Positions 1,490-36,175 of a stretch of 54,197 nt of DNA are shown here, piece by piece. Positions within the stretch are counted from its first letter, which is position 1, and every line of letters begins with the position of its first letter. The position numbers were made by a program, and so were the translations under genes. This stretch comes from Myxococcota bacterium (lineage in GTDB: Bacteria; Myxococcota_A; UBA9160; SMWR01). Below the pieces are notes generated by a model. It made no database searches, was not told the DNA's origin, and saw nothing but the letters and a program-made list of their open reading frames with translations. The DNA is taken from the NCBI GenBank assembly GCA_039030075.1, contig JBCCEW010000034.1, forward strand, positions 1-54,197, in the 5' to 3' direction.

Positions 1490-1856
1490 TGGTGGAGGCG
1501 GCGGGAATCGAACCCGCGTCCGCATGGTGTCCGGCCAACGCGTCTACGTGCGTAGTCCCTGCCCAATTTCGGTGGAGCCAGTCACAGGGTCCGGGAGAAG
1601 CACCCACCTAGACAGACATGGTTCTCGCCCCCGGATGCGGCCTGTCAGCGGCCGGGGGCCAGTCTCCTAATGACGACCGTGACCCGCTAGGAGACGTCAC
1701 GGACGGTCGTCGCTGACGCTAGGGTTTAGCTAGGCAGCGATGGCGTAGTTGTCATCGGCAGTTATCACTACCAATTGCCACCTGGATTAACGAGGTGGGT
1801 GACGACCTCGGCACGCAGCGCTCGCTTTCGACCACCCGTCGAAACCGATCGCCCCC
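1490..1856 (-). ncRNA. ssrA: tmRNA (transfer-messenger RNA)
   Basis: A 367-nt tmRNA on the minus strand. The 5' end GGGGGCG pairs over 7 bp with the 3' acceptor strand; the T arm GCGGG-TTCGATT-CCCGC and an encoded CCA (1490-1492) complete the tRNA-like domain. The tag reading frame runs from about 1765 down to a TAG stop at 1732-1730 and encodes ITADDNYAIAA if the resume codon (ATA) follows a TAGTG determinant as TAGTC does in E. coli; a GTG one codon earlier is also possible. The YAxAA ending matches the degradation tags recognised by ClpXP-type proteases. Its protein partner smpB is at 17665-18156 in this window. Confidence 0.95.
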
Positions 1857-33212: not shown

Positions 33213-33743
33213 TCAGCGCGTCTTCGTGGCCTCGCTCGCGAGATGCCCGATTTCCGGGAGGATCAACTTTTCGAGTGCCAGGCGAATCGCGCCGCGCGAC
33301 CCGGGGAGCACGAACACGACCTTGCCGCGCGCGATTCCGGCCGTGGCGCGGGAAAGCAGAGCGGCCGAGCCGATGTCCCCGTAGCTGAGCGAGCGGAACA
33401 ACTCGCCGAAGCCGGGAATCTCGCGCTCGAGCAGGGGCGCGACGGTCTCCGGGGTCACGTCGCGCGGCGCGACGCCCGTCCCCCCCGTGAGGAGCACCGC
33501 CCGCACCGGATCGCGCTGCAACGCCTCGTCGGTCGCCGCGACGATGGCGGCCGCCTCGTCGCGCACGATCTCGCGGCCCGCAACCGGGTGACCCGCCCCC
33601 TCCAACAGCTCCGCGAGGAGTTTCCCGCCCGTGTCGGTCTCTTCAGTCCGCGTATCGCTCACCGTGATGACCCAACAGGGAACGTTCTCGATGGCAGCGC
33701 GACGGTGATGATGACCGGCGGCGGCCGGGTTCGGATCACTCAC
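33213..33743 (-). CDS. moaB: molybdenum cofactor biosynthesis protein MoaB (MogA/MoaB family)
   Basis: 176 residues from GTG 33743, which overlaps the stop of the fused moaD-moaE gene (GTGA). Motifs: [33 protein letters not shown] (molybdopterin-binding) and [15 protein letters not shown]. It adenylylates molybdopterin before metal insertion, or binds MPT. Together with the neighbouring gene this is a compact molybdenum cofactor unit. Confidence 0.93.
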
Positions 33744-34399
33744 GGGCGATCGTCCACCCAATACTCGCCGTCGGTGGCCACTTCCTTCTTCCAGATCGGG
33801 ACCGTCTGCTTCAGCGTATCGATCGCGAACCGGCAGGCGTCGAAGGCCTCCGCGCGATGGGGTGCCGCCGCTGCGATGACGACCGCGATGTCCCCCACCT
33901 CGAGGTGCCCCGCTCGGTGTCCGATCGACACCCGGGTTCCGGGCCAGCGCTCGGCGGCCGCATCCGAGATCTTCTGCATCTCTCGGACCGCCATCTCGGG
34001 GTAGGCCTCGTACTCGAGGTGGCGAATCGAACGGCCCCGCGCGTGATCGCGGACGGCACCGACGAACGTCACGATCCCGCCCATGCCCGGGCCCTTCACG
34101 CGCGCGACCGCCTCTTCTTCGCGGATGGGGCGCTCGGAAAGCCAGCAGAGGTCGCTGCCTCCGGCCACCGGCGGCAGGAAAGCGACCTCGTCGCCGTCCT
34201 GCAACACCGTTTCAGAAGGCGCCACCTCGAGGTTCACGGAAACGGCCAGGCGCTCACCGAACTCCTCGAAGAGCGGGTGGGACTCGGCCATGCGGGCGCG
34301 CAGCGTCGCGGCCGTCGCGGCCTCGGGGAGCTCGACCGACAGCTCTTTCTCCCCCACGGCCTCGCGCAGGGCCCCGAACAGCTTCAGACGGATCTGCAT
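33740..34399 (-). CDS. fused MoaD-MoaE molybdopterin synthase
   Basis: 219 residues from ATG 34399. Residues 1-81 are a complete MoaD (MQIRLKLFGALREAVG ... DEVAFLPPVAGG), ending in the Gly80-Gly81 that must be a free C-terminus for thiocarboxylation. Residues 82-219 are MoaE (GGIVTFVGAVRDHARG; GHLEVGDIAVVIAAAAPHR; DTLKQTVPIWKKE with the catalytic lysines). There is no linker at all between the two. As in mycobacterial MoaX, the fusion would have to be cleaved after Gly81 to work. Coupled to moaB by a start-stop overlap. Confidence 0.92.
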   Translation of the reverse strand: MQIRLKLFGALREAVGEKELSVELPEAATAATLRARMAESHPLFEEFGERLAVSVNLEVAPSETVLQDGDEVAFLPPVAGGSDLCWLSERPIREEEAVARVKGPGMGGIVTFVGAVRDHARGRSIRHLEYEAYPEMAVREMQKISDAAAERWPGTRVSIGHRAGHLEVGDIAVVIAAAAPHRAEAFDACRFAIDTLKQTVPIWKKEVATDGEYWVDDRP

Positions 34400-34515
34400 C
34401 GGGGCGAGGCTACTCCGGCCGCGGGGCTTCCTCAACGCGCGTTGACCCGGCTTTCGGCGCGCGCCTAGAATCCACGAAGCGCGCCGCGTTTGGCGCGGCG
34501 ATGGAGGGGAACGCC

Positions 34516-35220
34516 ATGGCAGCTCGCAAGAAGAGCTCTCGGAAACGAACGGCGGCGCGCAAGCCGGCGTCCCGTCGGAAGACCGGCGGAAAGAAGAAGA
34601 CCACCCGGAAGAAGGCCACGCGGAAGAAGACGGCTCGCAAGGCCGCGAAGAAGAAGACCGCGAAGCGCAAGACGTCGAAGAAGAAGACCTCGCGCAAGAA
34701 GGCCGGAAAGAAGAAGACCGCGCGCAAGAAGAGTACTCGGAAGACGGCGCGCAAGAAGGCTCCGAAGAAGAAGAAAGCGACCAGGAAGAAGGCCAGTCGC
34801 AAGAAGACGGCCCGGAAGAAGGCGACCAAGAAGAAGGCGCGGCGGAAGAAGGCCGCGAGCAAGAAGAAGGCGACGCGGAAGAAGACGGCGCGCCGCACCG
34901 CCAAGAAGACCGCGCGCCGCAAGAAGAAGGCCACTGCGAAGAAGACGACGCGGAAGAAGGCGCCGAAGAAGTCGACGCGGAAGTCCCCGGCGAAGAAGAA
35001 GGCGCCCGCGAAGCGCGCTTCGAAGCCCGCAGCGACCCCCGCGATCGAACCCAGCCTGAGTGCGGCAGCCCGGGAGGCGAACCGCCCTTTTCTCCGGAGC
35101 GCCAACCGGCGTCGACCGAGTCGGCGGGCCAACCCGTCGCTGGCACGGCCGACCTGGGCGGCGCGCAATCGGCGCAGCCTGCACCCGCGGCGTCCGAATC
35201 CGTGGGGACGCCGCCGCTAG
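34516..35220 (+). CDS. lysine-rich histone H1-like protein
   Basis: 234 residues from ATG 34516, which has GGAGGGG upstream (34503-34509); ATG 34501 is less likely. Residues 1 to about 165 consist almost wholly of KKxTxRKKA-type repeats, like the histone-H1-like proteins of Chlamydia and many deltaproteobacteria, and should bind DNA or RNA non-specifically. After about 35085 the composition changes abruptly to Arg/Pro-rich sequence that looks like out-of-frame translation, while the -1 frame carries a sensible linker into the EF-Tu-like module at 35202-35495. The real product may therefore be longer and end in that module. Confidence 0.75.
   Translation: MAARKKSSRKRTAARKPASRRKTGGKKKTTRKKATRKKTARKAAKKKTAKRKTSKKKTSRKKAGKKKTARKKSTRKTARKKAPKKKKATRKKASRKKTARKKATKKKARRKKAASKKKATRKKTARRTAKKTARRKKKATAKKTTRKKAPKKSTRKSPAKKKAPAKRASKPAATPAIEPSLSAAAREANRPFLRSANRRRPSRRANPSLARPTWAARNRRSLHPRRPNPWGRRR
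35085..35091 (+). promoter_or_regulatory. candidate -1 ribosomal frameshift heptamer
   Basis: CCCTTTT lies in the correct phase (C CCT TTT) of the histone-like gene. A -1 slip here moves ribosomes into exactly the frame of the downstream EF-Tu-like ORF. Possible stimulators downstream are the short palindrome CTCCGGAG (35092-35099) and a 7-bp stem CGTCGAC/GTCGGCG (35110-35126). A sequencing or assembly indel is the main alternative. Confidence 0.4.
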
Positions 35221-35495
35221 CGGCGGGGCAGGTCAGCGCTAGCGAGCCCGATCGGATCGGGATCGTGACCCACTACTACGAACACGTGGGTGCGGCGACG
35301 GTCCGCATCGAACAGGGCGCCCTCGCGGTCGGCGACATCATCCACATCCGGGGGCACACGACCGACTACTACCAGCCGGTCGAGCGGCTCGAACGCGACC
35401 ACAACCCGGTCGAGCAGGCGTCCGCGGGCGAGGAGATCGCCCTCCAGGTGAGCCAACGCGTTCGCGAGAACGACGCGGTGCACCGCCTCCGCTGA
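35202..35495 (+). CDS. translation elongation factor-like (EF-Tu domain 2-like) module
   Basis: 97 residues from the first start codon in this frame (GTG 35202), overlapping the histone-like gene by 19 bases. The recognisable part is GIVTHYYEHVGAATVRIEQG, LAVGDIIHIRGHTTDYYQPV, DHNPVEQASAGEEIALQVSQRVRENDAV, the beta-barrel family annotated as elongation-factor-like proteins. No Shine-Dalgarno precedes the GTG, and the frame is open upstream with a Pro/Ala/Ser-rich linker-like stretch from about 35091, so it is probably the C-terminal domain of the preceding gene joined by a frameshift. A strong terminator follows. Confidence 0.7.
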   Translation: MGTPPLAAGQVSASEPDRIGIVTHYYEHVGAATVRIEQGALAVGDIIHIRGHTTDYYQPVERLERDHNPVEQASAGEEIALQVSQRVRENDAVHRLR

Positions 35496-35587: not shown

Positions 35588-36043
35588 TCAGCTCTTCTTG
35601 GCGTTGTCGCCGCCATCGTTGTTGGCGCTCGGCTTCGACTTGCCACCCTGGCCCATCTTGACGGAGCCGTTGAGCTCGGCGCCGTCCTCGATGATCAGGG
35701 AACCGGTCTCGATGTTGCCATCGACCCGGGCCGTCTTGTGCAGGACGACCTTGGTGCCCGCGACGATGTCGCCCATCACGGTGCCACTCACGGCCACGGT
35801 CTTCGAGCGGATGGTCGCTTCGATCTCACCGCTCTCGCCCACGATCAGGGTGTTCTCGCTCGAGATCTCACCGCGGAAGCGGCCATCGATCCGAACGGTG
35901 TCCTTGAAGGACAGCTTCCCTTCGAACTCGGACCCCTGGTCGATGAACGCCGTGAGCCCGCCCGGGCTGGGTGCCGCCGACGCCGCCGGCGTTCCACCGA
36001 AGTCCGAATCCGAGCCCTTGGTTCCAAACGGGGTACGCGCCAT
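35588..36043 (-). CDS. bactofilin family cytoskeletal protein
   Basis: 151 residues from ATG 36043, with AGGAGG upstream. A short unstructured N-terminus is followed by the bactofilin (DUF583) beta-helix of about 100 residues: FEGKLSFKDTVRIDGRFRGEI, NTLIVGESGEIEATI, GTVMGDIVAGTKVVLHKTARVDGNIETGSLIIEDGAELNG. A Gly/Lys/Asn-rich tail ends it. Bactofilins polymerise without nucleotide and organise cell shape, stalks or chromosome positioning. Monocistronic by the flanking signals. Confidence 0.94.
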   Translation of the reverse strand: MARTPFGTKGSDSDFGGTPAASAAPSPGGLTAFIDQGSEFEGKLSFKDTVRIDGRFRGEISSENTLIVGESGEIEATIRSKTVAVSGTVMGDIVAGTKVVLHKTARVDGNIETGSLIIEDGAELNGSVKMGQGGKSKPSANNDGGDNAKKS

Positions 36044-36175
36044 CCAGGATCCTCCTCGTGTGCAGATAGGCCGGGGCGCCCCAGCGCCTCCGAGCCCTGC
36101 ATCGGCGGGGTCCTGGGGCAACTTGAGAAGGCCTCCCCAGCGGGTGGGGCTGAGAGGAATTGGGAGGTTCGGGGC

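Follow-up and report, generated by a model that had tools for sequence, protein, structure and literature searches.

A probable programmed -1 ribosomal frameshift linking a lysine-rich polycation to an EF-Tu-domain-2-like barrel in a chromosomal gene of the Myxococcota

The locus and its predicted products

The window analysed here, a stretch of 54,197 nucleotides from a Myxococcota bacterium (contig JBCCEW010000034.1), holds between moaDE and a bactofilin gene an open reading frame for a Lys-rich protein, together with an EF-Tu-domain-2-like domain which is encoded in the -1 frame relative to that Lys-rich ORF (frame 0; Table 1). This division of the two parts between the frames had been proposed in the initial annotation of the DNA and was confirmed both by the ORF coordinates and by base composition, as GC3 has a value of 0.91 for the 0 frame in the upstream part and the same value for the -1 frame past the 0-frame stop, and in the overlap of both frames the GC content by codon position is without a clear phase. 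GC by codon position thus confirms that the frame is switched within this gene. The -1 frame is open, in a Glu/Gln-rich reading, across the entire Lys-rich region, and for that reason the switch point is not locatable from openness alone; its predicted place is given by the slippery heptamer described below combined with comparative data. That the 0-frame tail is rich in Arg and Pro was not taken as a sign of function in itself, since the linkers of single-frame relatives are also Arg/Pro-rich in that frame.

Table 1. Features of the locus, in window coordinates
Feature	Position	Strand	Basis
moaDE, conserved upstream neighbour	33743..34399	-	
Shine-Dalgarno GGAGGGG of the Lys-rich gene	34503..34509	+	sequence
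0-frame ORF (ATG 34516, TAG 35218-35220), Lys-rich polycation with Arg/Pro tail	34516..35220	+	
Internal SD-like GGAGG	35073..35077	+	conserved in relatives
Slippery heptamer CCCTTTT, in phase for a -1 slip	35085..35091	+	sequence and relatives
-1 frame after the slip, Pro/Ala/Ser linker and barrel (TGA 35493-35495)	35091..35495	+	
Predicted hairpin, beginning 8 nt past the heptamer (weakly supported)	35099..35164	+	
Rare CTA codon of the -1 frame, creating the 0-frame stop	35217..35219	+	relatives compared
EF-Tu-domain-2 / U32-C-terminal-like beta-barrel	35253..35492	+	
Bactofilin, conserved downstream neighbour	35588..36121	-	

The unshifted product is a 234-aa Lys/Arg-rich polycation that ends in a short Arg/Pro tail, and the shifted product is predicted to be a fusion of about 326 aa that carries the Pro/Ala/Ser linker and the barrel in addition. 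The Lys-rich part had been labelled histone H1-like, a label which did not hold, as its match to the histone H1-like family HC2 (PF07382) reaches 16.2 bits against a cut-off of 40 and the likeness is one of Lys-rich composition only. The description of the barrel as an EF-Tu-domain-2-like module stood in that it matches the Pfam family GTP_EFTU_D2 (PF03144) with 31.5 bits at a gathering score of 30.3, albeit with a fold that is equally near the C-terminal domain of U32 peptidases. An AlphaFold2 model of the barrel (pLDDT 92.8) was matched by Foldseek to 4he5, a U32-peptidase C-terminal domain (TM 0.82/0.89, rmsd 1.1), the other closest folds being domain 2 of IF2 and of EF-Tu, and Pbp11 (7anu); with the barrel also closest to the U32-peptidase domain, the designation as a translation protein is a lead only. 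No GTPase domain was detected by Pfam, which returned just the D2-like barrel and the sub-threshold HC2 match. By analogy, the Lys-rich part would be expected to bind nucleic acid, and the barrel may bind RNA, tRNA or the ribosome.

DNA resembling the Lys-rich part at 72-77% identity is present at other places in the same genome (L002-L005, on contigs C14, C26, C3 and C8 of G000), and Lys-rich genes appear to have multiplied in this lineage. The window also contains a tmRNA gene (1490-1856, minus strand) with the tag peptide ADDNYAIAA. In the same genome, 15 tRNA genes are closely clustered (L153 1501-2863; G000:C4, from 55267); the anticodons of several of them recur elsewhere in the genome, and the cluster may be a tRNA array carried by a mobile element.

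Orthologues and the origin of the split arrangement

Domain searches covering the same family, order and class (91 genomes) detected the EF-Tu-domain-2-like domain in about 40 of the 91. Among the relatives with both parts assembled, 16 carry the Lys-rich domain, linker and barrel in a single continuous ORF, 14 of them from the same order (G002, G003, G007, G009, G014, G015, G016, G017, G026, G028, G045, G061, G064 and G067) and two from another family of the class (G083 and G087), from which it follows that the fusion is the usual product. The gene order moaDE, this gene, bactofilin was found wherever both flanks were readable, and this shared location identifies the genes as orthologues. The -1 arrangement of the window is present in G001, of the same genus (contig JAHEJV010000015.1, barrel 68% identical), and in G008, of another genus (contig CALDCK010000316.1, barrel 60% identical), both of which also exhibit the GC3 frame switch and both of which are independently assembled metagenome assemblies. 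The frame arrangement and the motif described below are conserved in all three members of one clade comprising two genera, these three being the only members that have the signal. In a tree of the neighbour genes the three split genes were monophyletic (support 98/93), and a tree built from the barrel only (about 90 aa) did not resolve the trio. These data are best read as a single origin of the split arrangement from an ancestor with the gene in one frame, a direction of change that we infer.

Substitutions between the barrels of the window and G001 number 19, 16 and 36 at codon positions 1, 2 and 3, respectively, and this position-3 bias indicates selection on the barrel protein. Substitutions in the overlap have no codon-position bias, which fits a double constraint and equally a free linker.

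The nearest further barrel, 66-67% identical to that of the window and grouping with the split genes, was found in G066 (L061 / L131, C170:1-223), a genome assigned to another family; the contig begins inside the barrel domain, and a search for the upstream part of the gene did not find it. A frame change within the barrel itself, without a slippery motif, was observed in a related gene at L104 (G041 C326) and probably stems from misassembly or from damage to that copy. No Lys-rich gene was present beside moaDE in G005, G006 and G010, family members without a barrel match, and no relative was found in the viral contigs searched.

The slippery heptamer, its surroundings and the 0-frame stop

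Divided into codons, the heptamer CCCTTTT of the window gives C CCT TTT for frame 0 and, for the -1 frame, CCC TTT T; the exact X_XXY_YYZ phase that had been assigned to it for a -1 slip was verified at its coordinates. An X_XXZ_ZZN heptamer in the correct phase therefore lies between two open frames. At the matching place and in the same phase G001 has CCCTTTC and G008 CCCTTTT, and an in-phase slippery heptamer is absent from the linker of the single-frame relatives. The initial annotation had looked to homologues for either one ORF or a conserved heptamer, and each was found, the former in the 16 relatives and the latter, as in-phase CCCTTTY, in the two split ones. An SD-like GGAG precedes the heptamer in all three species with 12 nt between its start and that of the heptamer, the GGAGG of the window ending 7 nt ahead of the motif. 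The resulting pattern GGAGN5CCGCCCTTTY has identical spacing in the window, G001 and G008, in a linker which is barely alignable around it, and it matches exactly once in each of the three split-gene genomes, always in this gene. Eight further matches among 80 genomes of the order lie in unrelated sequence, occur at about the rate of a reversed control pattern and look like chance. Within the window, in-phase CCCTTTY does not occur in the 12,010 codons of the 31 other genes, in which TTT makes up 5.7% of Phe codons and CCT 5.5% of Pro codons. When the sequences were shuffled with dinucleotides preserved, a heptamer efficient in bacteria, in phase and with GGAG 6-17 nt upstream, arose in 1.0%, 1.0% and 4.6% of shuffles for the three species taken singly, frequencies which are not simply multipliable because the species share ancestry. 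As invariant columns, even in runs, say little by themselves in sequence so GC-rich, weight was put instead on the rare T-containing codons, the phase, the spacing and the stop.

The genome of the window encodes tRNA-Pro(GGG) and tRNA-Phe(GAA), each of which can pair with the 0-frame codon and with the -1-frame codon alike. In a test of all heptamers in E. coli, H_HH.U_UU.Y was among the efficient motifs and C_CC.U_UU.U and C_CC.U_UU.C were both chosen as frameshift-prone, the stimulators of bacterial -1 frameshifting being SD-like sequences 6-17 nt upstream and structures 5-8 nt downstream (PMC4066793). The heptamer class, the SD-like element and its spacing at the present locus agree with these published bacterial -1 signals, which were obtained in E. 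coli, and the GGAG of all three species falls within the upstream range. Downstream, the window and G001 each have a predicted long hairpin that starts 8 nt past the heptamer, the outer stems of the two being similar, and the fold of G008 differs; relative to shuffles the predicted hairpins of the three species are only modestly more stable (z -1.39, -1.83 and -1.25). The short T run at the switch point could also suggest transcriptional slippage, by which a mixed mRNA population would restore the frame; however, it consists of TTT or TTTT only, far below the poly-A/T runs employed in transcriptional realignment (PMC3711429), and such a mechanism requires neither the CCC nor the phase nor the SD-like element, for which reasons we hold it to be extremely improbable.

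The 0-frame stop is located 115-133 nt past the heptamer start in all three split genes, in the -1-frame contexts CCG CTA GCG, CCG CTA GCG and GCG CTA ACG, the distance from stop to barrel being equal in the window and G001 and the stop of G008 lying 24 nt further upstream. CTA represents 0.9% of Leu codons in the genome of the window and is present in the linker of all three split genes as against none of 13 other relatives. A conserved stop in so rare a codon suggests that there is selection for ending the unshifted product here, and thus that two products are wanted. Within 35210-35245, the TAG of the window is contained in the palindrome CGCCGCTAGCGGCG, shortly past which there is a second GCGCTAGC, and the stop of G001 is likewise within GCTAGC.

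The GTG at 35202, 16 nt ahead of the 0-frame TAG, might serve as an internal start at which ribosomes reinitiate near that stop, making the barrel the separately translated product of the second of two coupled genes, and barrels of the same type do stand alone in other phyla, L064 and L084 being examples. This codon, however, is the sole canonical start ahead of the domain in the EF frame, is not conserved and has no Shine-Dalgarno, in keeping with the earlier observation that the EF-like domain lacks one of its own, and in G001 and G008 the nearest ATG, GTG or TTG either lies at a distance of 47-75 nt from the stop or falls within the first strand of the barrel, again without a Shine-Dalgarno. 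The absence of a conserved -1-frame start codon with a Shine-Dalgarno speaks against two independently initiated genes, the orthologues are fused, and coupling would leave the conserved in-phase heptamer and the internal SD unexplained, so that we judge this explanation unlikely. A further explanation is an assembly indel, which the initial annotation had set beside frameshifting, or a recently broken copy, the true gene being one ORF. It is in line with the single ORF of most relatives and with other apparent frame breaks among them, at L018 (which contains an N) and at L104 (inside the barrel), but the offset, the in-phase heptamer, the SD spacing and the 0-frame stop recur in three diverged species and the barrel retains position-3-biased substitutions, the mark of selection on the protein; this alternative was rejected as very unlikely.

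Proposed recoding and comparison with known systems

We consider it very probable that the gene uses programmed -1 ribosomal frameshifting, with a single origin from a gene in one frame, and the suggestion of such frameshifting in the initial annotation has gained strong support from the same signal in three diverged species alongside one ORF in others. Ribosomes would initiate at ATG 34516 and read the Lys-rich domain as far as C_CCT_TTT, where the P-site tRNA-Pro(GGG) and the A-site tRNA-Phe(GAA) would re-pair one base back on CCC_TTT, a slip that base pairing between the upstream GGAGG and 16S rRNA may promote, perhaps together with the downstream hairpin. Ribosomes that slip would continue into the Pro/Ala/Ser linker and the beta-barrel, while those that do not would stop at TAG 35218 and release the Lys-rich protein, one gene thereby giving, as dnaX does, two isoforms in a fixed proportion. 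Both the occurrence of slippage and its efficiency are matters that we infer from the sequence. The arrangement would have originated by a frame change in an ancestor making the fusion only, together with fixation of the slippery signal. It is also conceivable, albeit improbable, that the frameshift acts as a regulatory switch, the translation-factor-like barrel that slippage yields attaching to ribosomes or tRNA and exerting feedback on the very frameshifting from which it arises, in which event the ratio of the polycation to the barrel-bearing isoform would report the state of translation.

In the part of the literature covered no report on this gene was found, and the case is apparently a previously unreported one of a known kind of recoding. 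Proven -1 frameshifting is rare in ordinary bacterial chromosomal genes, and Recode lists 10 chromosomal-gene entries among 245 -1 cases (PMC4066793). The existence of single-frame orthologues and an apparently single origin kept in two genera would allow the evolution of a recoding signal to be traced stepwise. The locus further suggests that non-model bacteria of high GC content employ C_CCU_UUY in combination with an internal SD, sites that would escape searches designed around A-rich heptamers, and gene callers would give two genes or a pseudogene here.

The -1 frameshift of dnaX yields two isoforms of which the shifted one is the shorter. The present gene has in common with dnaX of E. coli and with IS911 an in-phase X_XXZ_ZZN heptamer, an SD-like GGAG upstream and a possible stem 5-8 nt downstream, and with dnaX two isoforms, predicted for the present gene, with a common N-terminus; it differs in its heptamer, C_CCU_UUY as opposed to the A_AAA_AAG of the dnaX/IS911 type, in that the predicted shifted product is the longer one, and in being a chromosomal gene whose protein has a putative function, suggested by its domain families. 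The single-frame orthologues of the same family and order occupy the same locus between moaDE and bactofilin and have the same architecture, whereas they consist of one ORF, lack an in-phase heptamer in the linker and would produce the fusion only. The barrel fold of the C-terminal domain is shared with the C-terminal domain of U32 peptidases, domain 2 of EF-Tu and IF2, and archaeal Pbp11, in contrast to which the present protein has neither a GTPase nor a peptidase domain, carries a Lys-rich polycation and is about 18-21% identical. Slippery sites of the Giardiavirus type use CCCUUUA for -1 frameshifting, and the CCCUUU site is thus held in common by a eukaryotic virus and, as proposed here, a bacterial gene.
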